Origin: an uncultured Dehalococcoidia bacterium
Lineage (GTDB): Bacteria > Chloroflexota > Dehalococcoidia > Lucifugimonadales > Lucifugimonadaceae
Direction: 5' to 3'
Assembly (NCBI GenBank): GCA_913052475.1
Contig: CAJXEJ010000013.1
Coordinates: 1-51,206 of the forward strand
DNA length: 51,206 bases
The notes beneath the pieces are model-generated. The model was not told the DNA's origin and searched no databases. It worked only from the letters and a program-made list of their open reading frames with translations. The translations under genes were made by a program, and so were the position numbers. Below, piece by piece: positions 12,214-35,194 of the stretch; positions within the stretch are counted from its first letter, which is position 1, and each line of letters begins with the position of its first letter.

Positions 12214-13145
12214 CCGTTTCTGATAACAGAACCACTACCACTAATTCAGTGTTCTTGTCCACCGGCTACATCGATGTCGAAGCGACGCTCGACGGTGGGC
12301 AGGCATTTCGTTGGTGGCCCGAGGATTCAGGTGGGTATCGCGGCATCGTCGGGCGCCGAGTGGTGAACGTCAGTGAGACAGACGGTGGCGTGGTGATTAC
12401 ACCGCTCGACGGGAAAAGCTCTGACGGACTTGGACATTTGATGCTGGAATATCTTGGCGAGGATCATGATATCGAGGGGTTTCGCACCCGGTTTGCCGAT
12501 GATAAGTGCCTCGGACCGGCGCTGCGTGGCTATTCAGGTTTACGAGTGCTGCGCCAAGATCCGTGGGAGTGTCTGTTCTCATTTATTACGTCTAGCACAT
12601 CAAATATTCCAAGAATCAAACTGAATGTTGGATCGGTAGTGGAGTGTCTTGGTTACTCGGTGGGTCCTAAGGTACGCGATGTCACCTTTCCCGAACCTGA
12701 AGTTGTATCGGGAGTTGGAGAGCAGTTTTTACGTGATTTAGGCTTCGGATTTCGAGCGAAATACCTTGTGCCAGCTGCGGAAGCTGTTGCCTCGGGTCAA
12801 CTGAATCTGACTGATCTACGAGAAGCGACATATGCGGAAGCTCGAGAAGCCTTAACCGCTCTCCACGGAGTTGGCGAGAAAGTCGCCGATTGCGTCCTAG
12901 CGTTCTCACTCGACAAACCTGAATCGTTCATCGTTGATCGGCACATATTGCGTGCGTTGCACAAGTGGTACGACCTACCCGAAAATTCGTCGATTTCTTA
13001 CGCTGCCGATTGGGCACGGGATTACTTCGGTGACCACTCATCCCTAGCAAACCAGTACATGTTTCACAGAGAGCGTCTCGCTCGTCGTGCGTCTGAGTGG
13101 GGCGGTGTTCATACCGCACGGGCACTCCCTGAGGACGAGAACTAG
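12210..13145 (+). CDS. ogg: 8-oxoguanine DNA glycosylase, OGG1 type
   Basis: A 311-residue bifunctional glycosylase/AP lyase that removes 8-oxoguanine. The N-terminal OGG domain has GGQAFRW (29-35) and LRQDPWECLFSF. The helix-hairpin-helix-GPD core has GVGEKVADC with catalytic K224, and D243 in IVDRH. The 19-residue K-D spacing equals that of human OGG1 (K249/D268). OGG1-type enzymes are less common in bacteria than MutM. Start is GTG 12210, overlapping the dinG stop, so the two repair genes are coupled. The stop TAG shares the palindrome CTAG (13142-13145) with the stop of the convergent nucleotidyltransferase gene. Confidence 0.93.
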   Translation: MTVSDNRTTTTNSVFLSTGYIDVEATLDGGQAFRWWPEDSGGYRGIVGRRVVNVSETDGGVVITPLDGKSSDGLGHLMLEYLGEDHDIEGFRTRFADDKCLGPALRGYSGLRVLRQDPWECLFSFITSSTSNIPRIKLNVGSVVECLGYSVGPKVRDVTFPEPEVVSGVGEQFLRDLGFGFRAKYLVPAAEAVASGQLNLTDLREATYAEAREALTALHGVGEKVADCVLAFSLDKPESFIVDRHILRALHKWYDLPENSSISYAADWARDYFGDHSSLANQYMFHRERLARRASEWGGVHTARALPEDEN

Positions 13146-14416
13146 CTGGTAAGAAAGTCTGGTAGCCGACTCCGGGCGAGATCCAGTTCTTGCTGCTTCG
13201 AACCGACCTTTCCATCGAGCTTTGCGCGCTTGACCACGTCGATCAACTGACCGATTACCGGACCTTCAGGAATACCTATGGCGATCAGATCGTCTCCGTT
13301 GATCTCCGGTACTACAAACCTGAGTTTCTCTCCGTATTCGACTAGCCGATCACGGCGGGGTAGTGGAGGTCCGGCTGCGATGTGAGCGTTGATCGACGCT
13401 AAAGGAATCTGGTGAAGTATTTCGGCGATTTCGCTTGGTCGTAGGTCAGGATCGTCGAGGAGTGCAACGGTTTTCGCCAATAGGGCATTTCCGGTGATCG
13501 ATTCGCCCCAATTAACCGGACCATCGAACCTGAGAACAACTTGACTGGCTTCATCCTCGCTCAGTCCGAACGTCACAATTGCCAGAAGTTCGCTGAGTTC
13601 GGTCGAGAGATTACCTGCCTCAGACATGGATTCAAGAGTTTGGAGTGCCCTTGATCCAACACGGAGTCCGGGACTAATCGCCCCAAGCAAGCCGATTTCC
13701 TCTGACACGCGCATTTGCTCAACACGCGTCGGTTCAGCAAGCATCAACTCAAACTCATTCCGGACGCGGATGCCACTGAGTTGGTCGATACTACTGAGTG
13801 AACTAGCGATCAACTCACTCGTCCTGGGTTCGATCGAAAATCCTAGCCTTGTCGCATACCGAACTGCCCGGAATATCCGAGTCGGGTCATCGACAAAACT
13901 CCCGTCGTGCAGAATTTTTATTCGCTTCCGCATGATGTCGCCAAATCCGTTTGCGGGATCGACTAAATTACCCCAGTCGTTCGGCGAAAGAGATACGGCC
14001 ATTGAATTGACAGTAAAGTCACGGCGCTTCAGATCGTCTTCGATGCTAGAAGCGGCAATATCCGGTAGTGCGGCTGGTTCGTCGTATTGTTCGGATCGTG
14101 CAGTCACGATGTCGATCGACCGTACCCCGGCCAACTCATCAGAAGTATTTATCTTGAACGTTAAGAACTGAGATTCAGTCGGTGGATCCTGTCTAAGGCG
14201 GTCCGCCAGAACCTCAGCGAACCTTCCCGCATTGCCGACCACAGAAAGATCGATGTCACCGGGCTGACGGTCGAGAATGAGATCGCGCACAATACCGCCG
14301 ACTATGAAAACGCCGTCGAGCTCATGGAGTTCACCCGAAATATCCCGGCATAACTCGAACACCCGCTGGTATTCGGGGGAAGACTTCGTTGTGAGCAGTT
14401 GGGCTATGTTGGGCAT
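13142..14416 (-). CDS. CCA tRNA nucleotidyltransferase / poly(A) polymerase family protein
   Basis: A class II nucleotidyltransferase of 424 residues. The head domain has FIVGGIVRD (38-45), the catalytic DID at 54-56 and KRRDFTVNSMA. The neck has DPTRIFRAVRYATRLGF for nucleotide selection and RNA binding. It adds CCA (or CC/A) to tRNA 3' ends, or is a poly(A) polymerase; sequence alone does not separate these. The two tRNA genes in this window encode CCA already. There is no HD domain. Its 3' end overlaps ogg by four bases. It is divergent from the DsbA-like selenoprotein candidate. Confidence 0.88.
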   Translation of the reverse strand: MPNIAQLLTTKSSPEYQRVFELCRDISGELHELDGVFIVGGIVRDLILDRQPGDIDLSVVGNAGRFAEVLADRLRQDPPTESQFLTFKINTSDELAGVRSIDIVTARSEQYDEPAALPDIAASSIEDDLKRRDFTVNSMAVSLSPNDWGNLVDPANGFGDIMRKRIKILHDGSFVDDPTRIFRAVRYATRLGFSIEPRTSELIASSLSSIDQLSGIRVRNEFELMLAEPTRVEQMRVSEEIGLLGAISPGLRVGSRALQTLESMSEAGNLSTELSELLAIVTFGLSEDEASQVVLRFDGPVNWGESITGNALLAKTVALLDDPDLRPSEIAEILHQIPLASINAHIAAGPPLPRRDRLVEYGEKLRFVVPEINGDDLIAIGIPEGPVIGQLIDVVKRAKLDGKVGSKQQELDLARSRLPDFLTS

Positions 14417-14563
14417 ATGTGTGTGGTAACGAGGTGAACGCTCTTGATTTCTGGACTGAACTGAATACTAAGCGTAATTATGGAATCTTTGCCCGAACGA
14501 TTCGATGTAGCGTTGCTAGAATTCGTGCAGATGAGCGAGGGATTAGCGAAAGAACGTCTAGCA

Positions 14564-15202
14564 GTGACGCAAGCAAACACACCGGTCAAGATCGATGTAT
14601 TTATCGACTACACCTGACCGTGGGTACGACAGGCCGGCATTTGGTTGGCCAGAGTAAAAGAAGAACTCGGCGACGAATTGGAAATCAATTGGCGGAATTT
14701 TGCGCTTGAGCAGGTCAATTCCAAAGAAGGAGACGATTGGAAGGCGTGGGAACAGGGTTCGGACTACATGAGCCGGGGTCTTTGGCCTCTTCGCGGTGGA
14801 ATCTCGGCCCGAGCGCAGGGAACTGACGCGCACAATGACTACATGGAGAAGATCCTTCATGCCAAGCACGTTGAGCGAGAAGATGTTCGTACACGTGAAT
14901 CTGTAATCGAAATCGCAAAAACTGCTTCGCTGGATATCGAAAAATTCACTTCCGTCCTCGACGACCCAGATTCGCTTGCTCAAATCGGGATCGATCACGA
15001 AGAAGCGCTTACACACGGTGTGTTTGGAACACCTACATTCGTTTTCGCCGATGGCTCGTCGGCATTCTTGAAAATGTTCACGCCACCTGAGAACGAAACG
15101 ATGAGTGCGTTCAACGATTTCATGGGTATCGCCAGTAGGCGAAAATACTTCGGCGAGCTGAAGCGGCCTCAGCCACCTTGGCCGCGAAATGCACGAGACT
15201 AA
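14564..15202 (+). CDS. DsbA-like thioredoxin-fold protein, candidate selenoprotein (in-frame TGA at 14615)
   Basis: This DsbA/FrnE-type oxidoreductase of about 212 residues is readable only if TGA 14615-14617 is translated. The first strand VKIDVFIDYT leads directly into TGA then PWVRQAG, so the TGA sits on the N-terminal catalytic cysteine of the DsbA motif. The frame then continues open for 195 codons. It includes the helical insertion domain and the cis-proline loop GVFGTPTF (P157). No cysteine occurs anywhere in the frame, so selenocysteine would be the sole redox centre (U-P-W-V, a one-chalcogen site). Start is uncertain: GTG 14564 gives the usual short N-terminus, while ATG 14531 and ATG 14480 are open in frame. 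None has a clear ribosome site. A Cys-to-stop nonsense mutation is the alternative. Confidence 0.75.
14632..14650 (+). promoter_or_regulatory. Candidate bacterial SECIS hairpin
   Basis: GGCC (14632-14635) pairs with GGCC (14647-14650) around an 11-base loop that begins GG; two further G-U pairs could extend the stem inward. The loop starts 18 bases after the TGA. A stem of at least 4 bp, a G in the first two loop positions and 16-37 bases from UGA to loop are the published bacterial SECIS criteria, and all are met. SelB binding is inferred. Confidence 0.6.
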
Positions 15203-15208
15203 CCGGTT

Positions 15209-15937
15209 TTGCCAATAACCCCGCTAGACACGGACCAGATCACATCGCTCGAAAATGCGTTGAACGTAATGTTCAGTGACAAGGATGTTCTGACCCTTGC
15301 GCTGACTCATCAGTCGTACTCAAACGAACATCCCGATTTTCCTGCGATCTCTAACGAGAGGTTGGAATTTCTTGGCGATTCGATCGTCGGAATGGTAATT
15401 GCCGATCGCCTGTATTCAGGTGCGCCCGATCTTCAGGAAGGCGACCTCACCGTCAGGCGATCACAGGTTGTTCGCCGTGAAACTCTGGCAACCGCTGCGA
15501 GAACGATCGGCCTCGGAGAATGGCTCGTAATGGGCAAGGGTGAAGCGGCGGCGGGAGGCGATGATCGGTCATCGAATCTTGCGGACACTTTCGAGGCGGT
15601 AGTCGGTGCCGTGTACGTCGACCGTGGTTATCGGCAGGCGAAAGCATTCGTGAACCGATGGCTTGGTGAGCACGTCAACGAAGCCCTTCAAACCGAAACG
15701 AAAAAGGATCCAAAATCCCTGCTACAGGAGTATCTGCAGGCGAATGGCAGTACGCCACCTCGATATCGACTGATTTCAGAAACCGGCACTCAGAGTGATC
15801 TCGTATTTACTATGGCAGTCGTGATCGACGACAAACCGATCGCATCAGGCATCGGTTCTCGGAAAATCGATGCAGAGCGCGAGGCTGCCAGATTTGCGCT
15901 GGATCATCTACGAACGCAATCGTCGTCCAACCGGTAA
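15209..15937 (+). CDS. rnc: Ribonuclease III
   Basis: A double-strand-specific RNA endonuclease of 242 residues for rRNA and mRNA processing. The signature NERLEFLGDS is at 49-58 with catalytic acidic residues E53 and D57, and E129 in DTFEAVVGA. The C-terminal double-stranded-RNA-binding domain begins at DPKSLLQEYL. Start is TTG 15209, six bases after the DsbA-like stop, with no clear ribosome site, which suggests read-through translation from the upstream gene. The rnc-ftsY order is common in bacteria. Confidence 0.95.
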   Translation: MPITPLDTDQITSLENALNVMFSDKDVLTLALTHQSYSNEHPDFPAISNERLEFLGDSIVGMVIADRLYSGAPDLQEGDLTVRRSQVVRRETLATAARTIGLGEWLVMGKGEAAAGGDDRSSNLADTFEAVVGAVYVDRGYRQAKAFVNRWLGEHVNEALQTETKKDPKSLLQEYLQANGSTPPRYRLISETGTQSDLVFTMAVVIDDKPIASGIGSRKIDAEREAARFALDHLRTQSSSNR

Positions 15938-32718: not shown

Positions 32719-33048
32719 ATGACAAAACCGCAGGATGTAAATGACGCCGAGTTCAGCACCGAAGTGATCGACTCAGAACTCCCAGTACTTGTCGATTTTT
32801 GGGCAGAATGGTGCGGTCCCTGCAAACAGATCGCCCCGGTTGTCGAAGAATTGGCCAACGAATACGACGGCAAGGCCAAGTTCGTAAAACTGAACGTCGA
32901 CACCAACCCTCAAACATCAGCTAAGTACGGCGTGCGCAGCATCCCGACACTGTTGATTTTCAAGGGTGGAGCCCCCGTTGGCCAGGTAGTCGGAGCTGTC
33001 CCGAAGAGCGTGCTGCAGGCACGACTCGAAGACGCAATGACCGTCTGA
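32719..33048 (+). CDS. trxA: Thioredoxin
   Basis: A 109-residue thioredoxin with the canonical W31-C-G-P-C35 site, the buried Asp in VLVDFWAEW and the cis-proline in RSIPTLLIF. It is a general cytoplasmic disulfide reductase and likely electron donor for the peroxiredoxin at 3939. It is 142 bases after the NuoG-like gene, so it may have its own promoter. An AAAGGGA ribosome site precedes ATG 32719. A strong terminator follows directly. Confidence 0.96.
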   Translation: MTKPQDVNDAEFSTEVIDSELPVLVDFWAEWCGPCKQIAPVVEELANEYDGKAKFVKLNVDTNPQTSAKYGVRSIPTLLIFKGGAPVGQVVGAVPKSVLQARLEDAMTV

Positions 33049-33062
33049 TAGTTTGTTCGAAA

Positions 33063-33099
33063 AAAAGACCCCGGAGGTTTATCGCTTTCGGGGTCTTTT
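33063..33099 (+). terminator. Rho-independent terminator after trxA
   Basis: An 11-bp perfect stem, AAAAGACCCCG (33063-33073) with its complement at 33089-33099, closes a 15-base loop and ends in TTTT. It lies 15 bases after the thioredoxin stop and isolates the tRNA-Sec gene from that operon. Confidence 0.92.
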
Positions 33100-33155
33100 G
33101 TTGATCGTTGTTCGAGTGAATGCCCTGTACTCTTGCTGCGTTCACAAAACAGTGG

Positions 33156-33253
33156 GGGAGTGGATAGGTCCCGGTGGGCCTCACGGACTTCAACTCCGCT
33201 GGCGTGCGTCCTTCGGCGTGCGCGGAGGGTTCGACTCCCTTGCACTCCCGCCA
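33156..33253 (+). tRNA. selC: tRNA-Sec (anticodon TCA)
   Basis: A 98-base tRNA including encoded CCA, with all selenocysteine-tRNA traits. The anticodon loop CTTCAAC has TCA at 33190-33192. The D arm has a 6-bp stem closed by the loop CGGT, as in E. coli selC. A long variable arm folds into a 7-bp stem (GCGTGCG with CGTGCGC, two G-U pairs). The T arm is GGGTTCGACTCCC, the discriminator base is G, and CCA follows. The acceptor stem has seven standard pairs; the expected eighth is G-G. It decodes UGA as selenocysteine with SelB and implies SelA/SelB/SelD elsewhere in the genome, none of which are here. Confidence 0.95.
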
Positions 33254-33315: not shown

Positions 33316-34209
33316 CTACCCGCGGTTGAAATCAGTCTGCCAGTCATCCTTGAGGGGCCACGTGAGTTGCTCCTCTAGATTTTCGTGATCGGCATACGCA
33401 ATTCGAACGCTCTCGATACTGGATCCCACAACTTCAAGGTCGTCTAGTGTGAGGTTTCGAAGTTGCATTGCGTAGCGCAAGTATCCGACTTGGTCGAGGC
33501 TGTAACCCATGATCTGGAGTCCAACGACATCGGCTGCAACTGCGTGGTGAGAAGCGACAACAACATTCGACTGTATGGCGTATCCGTCTATCGGGCCGTT
33601 GCCTTGCATTCCTACCGTGCCATCAATCACAGTCAAGTCAGGTGCCACATGCTGTGCCATCTTGGCGAGAGTCAGATTGATCGCCTTGCTTCCCTTGTGG
33701 ATCTTCTGCTTTTGCTCTTTTCCCGAAAGTGTGCCAACGAGAATGTTTTTCAACCCGAGCGTTACGACGACATTGTTGTGGGTTTTCATGGGGCAAACGG
33801 ACACGACGTAGGATTCAGATAATCGTTTCGACATGTACAGAGTTTGAGGGTTAAGTTGGTCGTCGAAGGCTGGAACAGGAACGCGGTCATCAGTGTTCAG
33901 GTCTAGGAACTCAATGTCGAAGTCGTCAGTGAGTGCCCGGTAGTCGTAGTTATCGAAACCGGAATCAGGAGTTCCTATCGCGGGCCCAACCGCAATCACG
34001 TACTTACTCACGCCTTGGCTCGCAAGGAATTCAAGAGTCGCTCGGGTGGAGTCGACGTGTGTGGCAGCCAACTGGTTTGAGGTCGTAACAAAATTCGGTT
34101 TGATCATAACCGGTAGATCGGGAATCGTTACTTCAGAATCAATTAACTGAAGCGCCTTTGTGACGCCTTCAGTGCGATTTGATGTGCTGGCGATGCTTAC
34201 TTTGATCAA
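33316..34209 (-). CDS. DUF362-domain protein (copy 1, intact)
   Basis: A 297-residue DUF362 protein. Conserved segments include MIKPNFV near 35-41, CPMKTH, LGLKNILVGTL and a SKAINLTLAKM block, then VIDGTVGMQGNGPIDG and HHAVAADVVGLQIMG. DUF362 proteins are often linked to iron-sulfur chemistry, but no cysteine cluster motif is present here and no function is established. TTG 34209 (MIKVSIAST) has GGAG eight bases upstream. A close paralog lies immediately upstream on the same strand. Confidence 0.87.
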   Translation of the reverse strand: MIKVSIASTSNRTEGVTKALQLIDSEVTIPDLPVMIKPNFVTTSNQLAATHVDSTRATLEFLASQGVSKYVIAVGPAIGTPDSGFDNYDYRALTDDFDIEFLDLNTDDRVPVPAFDDQLNPQTLYMSKRLSESYVVSVCPMKTHNNVVVTLGLKNILVGTLSGKEQKQKIHKGSKAINLTLAKMAQHVAPDLTVIDGTVGMQGNGPIDGYAIQSNVVVASHHAVAADVVGLQIMGYSLDQVGYLRYAMQLRNLTLDDLEVVGSSIESVRIAYADHENLEEQLTWPLKDDWQTDFNRG

Positions 34210-34298
34210 AATTAACTCCAGAATTGCCGTTTGCTTTAGCGGTGCCGTCTGGTGAAGATGATAACTGATAGCCCGCGCCCTTTAATTCAACGCCCTCA

Positions 34299-35194
34299 TC
34301 ACGTTACCCGGTTGATCACACCTCGCCAGTCCTCTTCCAGGGGCCACGCCAGTATTTCCTGGATTCCGCCGGGCGCAGCGAAAGCAATTAGAACCTCGTC
34401 GATGCTGGCTCCCACGACTTCGATGTCATCAAGGGTGAGGTTCCGCAGTTGCATTGCGTATCGAAGGTAACCAACCTGATACAGAGAGAACCCCATAATC
34501 TGCAGTCCAACTACATCGGCGGCGATCGCGTGATGAGAAGCGAGTACGACGTTCGACTGGATCGCATACCCGTCCATCGGACCATTACCTTGCATGCCAA
34601 CAGTCCCGTCGTTCACGGTCAAGTCAGGAGCTATGTGCTGCGACATCTTTGCCAGTGTCAAATTAATTGCCTTGGTTCCCTTGTGAATCTTCCGTCGTTC
34701 GGCAGGACCAGTTAGCGAACCAACCAGAACGTTCTTCAATCCCATCGTGACACCGACTCTAAGATGAATTTTCATCGGACACACAGACACCACATACGAC
34801 TCGGAAAGTTGCTTCGACATCTTTAGAGTTTGCGGATTCAGCTGCTCGTCGAATGCAGGCACAGGAACGCTGTCAACGTCGTTCAGATTCATGAATTCGA
34901 TATTGAAATCTTTCGCGAGGTCGCGATAACCATAGTTATCGAATCCGGGATCGGGCGAACCTTTTGCCGGTCCTTCTCCAACGATAAAATCAGTTACTCC
35001 CTTACTTTTCAGATACTCGAGAGCGGTGCGGGTTGCGTCGACATGAGTCGCAGCGAGCTGGTTTGTTGTTGTGACGAAATTCGGTTTGACCAACACAGGG
35101 AGATCGGGAATATTGACCTCTGAATCGATTAGTTCTAGCGATCGAGCTACACCTTCCCAACATTGTCAGTACCGGTAATGCCTACCTTGATCAA
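34299..35194 (-). pseudogene. DUF362-domain protein (copy 2) with one-base frameshift near its start
   Basis: From TTG 35194 the frame reads MIKVGITGTDNVG, then hits a stop two codons later. From the GGG at 35156-35158 onward the family sequence EGVARSLELIDSEV continues in another frame to the stop at 34299. Aligned to copy 1 the two halves fit with no gap if one G is restored (GGG to GGGG), so this is a single-base loss in a homopolymer. The rest is intact and closely matches copy 1 (VKPNFVTT, VCPMKIH, DGTVGMQGNGPMDG). It may be a true pseudogene or an assembly error. Internal starts such as GTG 35096 would drop the first 33 residues. Confidence 0.85.

Follow-up and report, generated by a model that had tools for sequence, protein, structure and literature searches.

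When is a TGA in the middle of a gene not a stop? In an uncultured Dehalococcoidia bacterium of the marine SAR202 group (family Lucifugimonadaceae), a gene related to dsbA carries an in-frame TGA at the position expected of the catalytic cysteine, and the encoded protein has no cysteine anywhere else. Two questions follow. The first is whether the TGA marks a broken gene or a codon for selenocysteine, and the second is how a member of a family known for paired cysteines might work with a single selenocysteine. I consider both for the stretch of 51,206 nucleotides on which the gene lies (contig CAJXEJ010000013.1 of assembly GCA_913052475.1), called the window throughout.

The gene and its product

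The features considered in this study are given in Table 1. The gene begins with GTG and ends with TAA, and the beginning of its product, through the site in question, would read MTQANTPVKIDVFIDYT-U-PWVRQ..., with U representing selenocysteine. The product matches the Pfam family DSBA (PF01323) with an E-value of 1.3e-14 and a score of 54.8 bits, against a gathering cut-off of 25.6. An initial annotation, made from the nucleotide sequence alone, had placed the TGA on the catalytic position, had noted that the family sequence continues for 195 codons (counted from the TGA to the last residue) and includes the cis-Pro loop, and had described a U-x-x-V site in a protein of zero cysteines. All of this is borne out.

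Table 1. Features of the window bearing on the candidate selenoprotein gene. Coordinates are those of the window.
Feature	Coordinates	Strand	Basis
tRNA nucleotidyltransferase / poly(A) polymerase family gene, upstream neighbour conserved in the close family	13142..14416	-	Synteny
DsbA-fold gene, predicted selenoprotein of 212 aa, motif DYT-U-P-W-V, without Cys	14564..15202	+	Pfam DSBA; alignment of relatives
In-frame TGA, predicted selenocysteine, residue 18	14615..14617	+	Sec or Cys in all relatives read
Codon for Val (residue 21), at the place of the resolving Cys in two-Cys relatives	14624..14626	+	Val in 78 of 87 rows
Putative bacterial SECIS hairpin (stem of 7 bp, loop AUUUG of 5 nt)	14632..14650	+	RNAalifold consensus; fold-energy and pairing tests
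cis-Pro loop G-T-P-T, residues 155-158	15026..15037	+	Invariant in 22 of 22 aligned sequences
C-terminal KRPQPPWP motif (residues 200-207)	15161..15184	+	Invariant in 22 aligned sequences
Ribonuclease III gene, 6 bases past the stop of the selenoprotein gene	15209..15937	+	TIGR02191, 229 bits; synteny
tRNA-Sec, anticodon TCA	33156..33253	+	ARAGORN; Rfam RF01852, 67.7 bits

The GTG start is upheld by the relatives: in 15 of 21 a start codon stands exactly 16 codons ahead of the site (17 in the window's gene), and L003 and L004 bear a stop in frame a short way upstream. A longer N-terminus, beginning with the ATG at 14480, is ruled out by the same observations. No obvious signal peptide is present, as judged by eye. 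Residues invariant over the 22 aligned sequences include D15, T17, P19, W20, V21, W43, R44, E49, and Q50, besides the two motifs listed in Table 1. The KRP core of the C-terminal tail is found also in those rows of the phylum alignment whose printed ends extend that far.

Selenocysteine and cysteine at the catalytic site

A pattern scan of named genomes, a method that reaches close relatives only, returned 22 loci, titled Chloroflexi or Dehalococcoidia but for one from Candidatus Lucifugimonas marina JH1073, described as a cultured member of SAR202 with a complete genome. Amongst the 21 loci that cover the site (53-88% identity), the codon is TGA in 19, TGC in one, and TGT in one, and the residue three positions on (henceforth +3) is always valine. 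A base-calling error, which had been raised as a way in which the selenoprotein claim might fail, is made unlikely by the ten site-covering loci at 79-88% identity (L001-L010), every one of which has TGA.

A profile search extended the family to 55 of 393 genomes of the class and 66 of 400 genomes of the phylum (the two samples overlap). For the phylum, the site was read in the 30 loci that were fetched, weaker matches below these being left out. After removal of duplicates and of rows with fewer than 150 filled columns, 87 distinct Chloroflexota rows remained. The site is occupied by selenocysteine (as TGA) in 59 and by cysteine in 28, and none of the 87 has anything else, a third possibility that would have spoken against the initial annotation. 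Taken together with +3, the combinations are Sec-Val (55 rows), Cys-Val (23), Sec-Cys (3), Cys-Cys (2), and one row each of Sec-Ala, Cys-Ser, Cys-Thr, and Cys-Ala; +3 is therefore Val in 78 rows, Cys in five, Ala in two, and Thr and Ser in one each. Nor is there a conserved substitute elsewhere in the protein: of the 81 rows lacking Cys or Ser at +3, 53 have no cysteine besides the site residue, and no second column of conserved cysteine exists, the best other column having cysteine in nine rows. As read from the alignment, the lost resolving cysteine is a trait of the family, not of the window's gene alone.

The exchange between selenocysteine and cysteine that had been anticipated amongst homologs can be seen directly in the codons at the aligned site. 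A tree of the 87 rows (from a quick search, with some long branches) requires 11 changes between the two residues, at least seven of which are forced by well-supported branches. Four relatives from the same class (L088, L091, L092, and L096) have the motif UPWC, that is, they appear to be DsbA-like selenoproteins that have kept the resolving cysteine. The three of these in the tree (L088, L092, and L096) group with the CxxC and CxxS rows, apart from the UxxV group, with an SH-aLRT support of 98%. No viral relative was found in BFVD at E<=0.001.

The sequence that precedes the TGA behaves as though translated. The D-Y/F-T motif immediately ahead of it is common to the Cys forms, and changes in the ten codons before it, compared over 19 relatives, fall mostly in the third position (25, 14, and 57 changes at positions 1, 2, and 3). 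In the same ten codons, 45 of 81 changed codons are nonsynonymous. A pseudogene or a sequencing error is rejected on account of the conservation of the TGA along with the presence of the machinery for selenocysteine (see below). There is also no sign of a genome-wide recoding of UGA, since TGA closes 9 of the 36 chosen ORFs of the window.

A hairpin downstream of the UGA codon

RNAalifold, given an alignment of 20 TGA genes (alignment A2), predicts a hairpin with a stem of 7 bp and a loop of 5 nt. In the window's gene the loop begins 25 nt from the T of the TGA, and in 50 of 52 TGA genes the distance is 24-27 nt, the exceptions being L018 and L080. Over all 20 genes of A2, 95.0% of the hairpin cells pair, a value as high as which was reached by 0 of 500 shuffles, and versions of the hairpin slid along the same alignment pair at most 55.7%. 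(An earlier run used 15 of the 20 rows, without L003, L004, L012, L017, and L018; the figures given here are for all 20.) The covariation score of the hairpin, 0.265, is likewise reached by 0 of 500 shuffles, with only one pair having changes on both sides, in six sequences; the number of pairs that change on both sides and the number of pair types do not rise above those in shuffles (477/500 and 331/500, respectively).

The energy of folding was compared with that of synonymous recodings, using 69 distinct sequences from 76 site rows. In a local test of 24 nt, applied to the 61 of the 69 with Val or Ala at +3, the mean z-score is -1.93 for 52 TGA genes vs -0.53 for nine Cys genes, and the stretch folds better than 80% of its recodings in 46 of the 52 vs two of the nine; the test is not fully independent, because it was placed after the consensus hairpin had been seen. 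Six of the 52 TGA genes fail the local test at p<0.2, and in L018 the hairpin is absent (z +0.27). Over a larger region of 39 nt the signal is weak, with mean z-scores of -0.64 (52 Sec-V/A genes), -0.49 (four Sec-xxC genes), and -0.34 (13 Cys genes), and z-scores for the hairpin in single sequences are weak as well. Taken together, the results support a putative stem-loop of the bacterial SECIS type directly downstream of the UGA.

The machinery for selenocysteine

The initial annotation had called for a search for selA, selB, and selD, and the genome from which the window comes has all three. The matches to selA (504 bits) and selD (366 bits) are above their cut-offs, as is that to selB (290 bits), which is partial, covering model positions 2-300 of 581. 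The tRNA-Sec that had been claimed for the window is found by both ARAGORN and Rfam. Three observations may be added in passing. The selD of this genome (G000 C70:769-1695, L037) appears itself to be a selenoprotein gene, with Sec in the motif CAGUAGK; a gene for a CGPC thioredoxin lies directly before the tRNA-Sec gene, at a gap of about 100 bases (window 32719-33253); and two consecutive DUF362 genes occupy 33316-35096 of the minus strand.

Possession of selB goes along with the form of the site. Of 44 genomes with the UxxV/A form, 43 have a match to selB, vs 19 of 25 with the Cys-V/A/T form (Fisher p 0.008, ignoring kinship), and amongst genomes at least 90% complete, in 37 of 37 vs 14 of 18 (p 0.009, again ignoring kinship). 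The sole UxxV/A genome without a match, G057, is 63% complete. The association runs in one direction, because 19 of the 25 Cys forms reside in genomes that bear selB. Left out of this comparison were the UxxC genomes (G022, G027, and G037, all with selB), other genomes with CxxC or CxxS (G065 with selB; G038, G053, and G116 without), those in which the site was unread (G021, G025, and G645 with selB; G727 without), and 14 genomes without a match to the family, 12 of which have selB. Considered by itself, the proposition that the window's gene encodes a selenoprotein seems to me almost certainly correct.

The chromosomal neighbourhood

The gene for ribonuclease III lies downstream in 20 of the 21 named loci that cover the site, and the one exception, L015, ends 728 bases past the site. 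Five Cys forms (L019, L020, L056, L057, and L067) also adjoin the RNase III gene. The Sec and Cys forms are thus positional orthologs beside RNase III. The link fades outside the order, with L062, L077, and L080 retaining it.

The neighbours offer no function. In close loci they are RNase III, FtsY, what I take to be SMC, tRNA nucleotidyltransferase, and OGG, genes concerned with RNA, DNA, and secretion, and the flanks of distant loci are mixed: 20 chosen flanking ORFs belong to various families, with no redox theme common to all. A CBS/M50 peptidase gene recurs beside L103, L104, and L109, which come from one family.

Fold and nearest known proteins

The AlphaFold model of the protein (pLDDT 88.6) predicts a DsbA fold. 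Its best match in the PDB is DR2335 of Deinococcus radiodurans (7dk9, 7dka), with a TM-score of 0.77, and DR2335 is the best match by sequence profile as well (1.4e-12). The two are 22-23% identical, and DR2335 has cysteine in place of selenocysteine and alanine in place of valine, its site reading Cys-Pro-Tyr-Ala in the alignment. Below DR2335, Foldseek finds YjbH, Rv2466c, GST kappa, DsbA, and DsbM.

The mycothiol-dependent reductase Rv2466c has the DsbA fold in common with the window's protein (TMq 0.63-0.68) but matches it weakly in sequence. A C22S mutant of Rv2466c exists, according to the title of the entry, and C22 is the second active-site cysteine of that enzyme; the protein considered here has valine at +3. 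Canonical DsbA, an oxidant of two cysteines, is unlike it for the same reason, having its second cysteine at +3. The UxxC DsbA selenoproteins (called "DsbA 1" and "DsbA-like form 1") have the Pfam family and the Sec site in common with it but retain the resolving cysteine. The score against the model for the Rcas_1661-type (seleno)lipoprotein, described as DsbG-like (NF041057), is 21.1 bits, below the cut-off of 190. The available text of a 2022 review gives DR2335 one conserved cysteine and knows of no functional data for it; the same text gives FrnE a CXXC active site and many of its kind an additional C-terminal CXXXXC, unlike a UxxV protein with zero cysteines (PMC8945050). Of the label "DsbA/FrnE-type" in the initial annotation, then, the DsbA part stands but FrnE is not the closest match, the nearest solved structure being the single-Cys DR2335.

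What the selenol may do

I regard it as reasonably probable, taking the explanation as a whole, that the protein is a DsbA-fold selenoprotein of a monoselenol reductase type, resolved by an external thiol. The protein, cytosolic in appearance, would be made by decoding UGA as selenocysteine by means of SelB, tRNA-Sec, and the hairpin just past the codon. Its selenol would be the sole redox-active residue, standing where the first helix begins and, by analogy with proteins of the same fold, facing the cis-Pro loop. It would attack a substrate in the oxidised state, whether disulfide, mixed disulfide, or peroxide, leaving a mixed selenenylsulfide or a selenenic acid on the selenocysteine. Because valine stands in place of the resolving cysteine, and the protein has no cysteine with which to form an internal bond to selenocysteine, this intermediate should be resolved by a partner from outside, for example thioredoxin or a small thiol.

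Which small thiol that may be was approached through the genes for their synthesis in 21 genomes. Neither BshC (bacillithiol) nor GCS2 was found in any of the 21, while EgtD exceeds its cut-off in six, five from the same genus and one from the order. In the window's genome (G000 C3:26193-26879) an EgtD-like gene occurs as two fragments, one match being interrupted by two TAA codons. The model for MshC (mycothiol) has one match in the window's genome, at 304 bits vs a cut-off of 485, and this match is probably CysS, because the same model finds matches in all 14 controls as well.

A selenol peroxidase, which would react with H2O2 or organic hydroperoxides much as a 1-Cys peroxiredoxin or GPx does and would regain its reduced state through thioredoxin or a small thiol, is unlikely, though a second cysteine would be unnecessary to it, the valine at +3 would simply preclude an internal disulfide, and selenocysteine is common in the lineage, the cultured member of which is described as an aerobe. 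The protein retains the cis-Pro loop, which usually binds peptide or thiol substrates, and enzymes with the DsbA fold mostly act on disulfides. Where the initial annotation had suggested either a peroxidase or a monothiol reductase, I would favour a monoselenol reductase of disulfides or mixed disulfides over a peroxidase.

Less probable again, in my view, is an enzyme akin to GST kappa, HCCA isomerase, or Rv2466c: a transferase, isomerase, or nitroreductase that depends on a thiol and in which selenocysteine serves as the nucleophile towards a small organic molecule. GST kappa and Rv2466c are indeed amongst the Foldseek matches (TMq 0.61-0.68), and SAR202 bacteria have been proposed, in the available text, to oxidise organic compounds of many kinds. 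However, none of the syntenic neighbours is catabolic, and no pathway for glutathione (GCS2) or bacillithiol and no confirmed pathway for mycothiol was found in the genomes searched. Furthermore, GST kappa and HCCA isomerase have serine at the corresponding place, a residue found at the site in none of the 87 rows.

Scarcely credible is a TGA that is a true stop or an error (through a pseudogene, a frameshift, a base-call artefact, or a new start past the TGA), for although TGA serves as an ordinary stop elsewhere in the window and an ORF of 185 aa with a TTG start lies downstream, the TGA is retained across families of the class and phylum, following a motif and a pattern of third-position changes that speak for translation, in a genome that encodes the machinery.

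Relation to reported selenoproteins and significance

The initial annotation considered a DsbA with a lone selenocysteine to be unusual; as a motif class, however, the UxxV DsbA is already known. Table 2 of a survey of GOS metagenomes (Zhang & Gladyshev 2008, PMC2398784) lists "DsbA 3", pfam01323, motif UxxV, with five Sec sequences in three samples and 72 Cys homologs. The window's gene agrees with that entry in family and motif, and the available text gives the entry no host, function, SECIS, tree, or structure. Table 1 of a 2026 catalogue (PMC13188914) distinguishes DsbA-like form 1 (UxxC) from form 2 (DxxUP). The latter, "DsbA-like protein form 2 (crotonase/enoyl-CoA hydratase family protein)" (PF01323, MDP6049977.1), agrees in Pfam family and has a motif that fits D-Y-T-U-P; the text available gives neither the residue at +3 nor host or function. 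In a 2022 catalogue (PMC9312934), the available part assigns the crotonase entry a different domain and accession.

The main text of the paper describing the cultivation of SAR202 contains no word beginning with "selen". A search of the open-licence literature, supplements excluded, found no paper that joins SAR202 with selenoprotein (two papers do contain SAR202 together with selenocysteine), and nothing on selenoprotein, DsbA, and UxxV beyond PMC2398784 and PMC13188914. Within that literature nothing came to light on the lineage of the host, on the Sec and Cys forms as orthologs, on the repeated switching between them, or on the loss of the resolving cysteine throughout the phylum.

One may venture, as a rather doubtful possibility, that Chloroflexota have a branch of the DsbA fold that is old and vertically inherited, has dropped the two-cysteine cycle, relies on one chalcogen, has switched many times between selenium and sulfur, and has in part kept the same chromosomal place. 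On the practical side, annotation that halts at the TGA would either overlook the gene or record no more than the portion past the codon, for example the ORF of 185 aa. The gene also connects a one-line metagenomic entry of 2008 to a widespread clade of the ocean that has a cultured member, Ca. Lucifugimonas marina. The Sec and Cys forms, being positional orthologs, provide a natural test of the benefit of selenium over sulfur in the absence of a resolving cysteine. If the partner should prove to be an unknown small thiol of SAR202, for which the genomes searched gave no GCS2-type glutathione or bacillithiol route and no confirmed route to mycothiol, then the protein would represent a new class of reductase.
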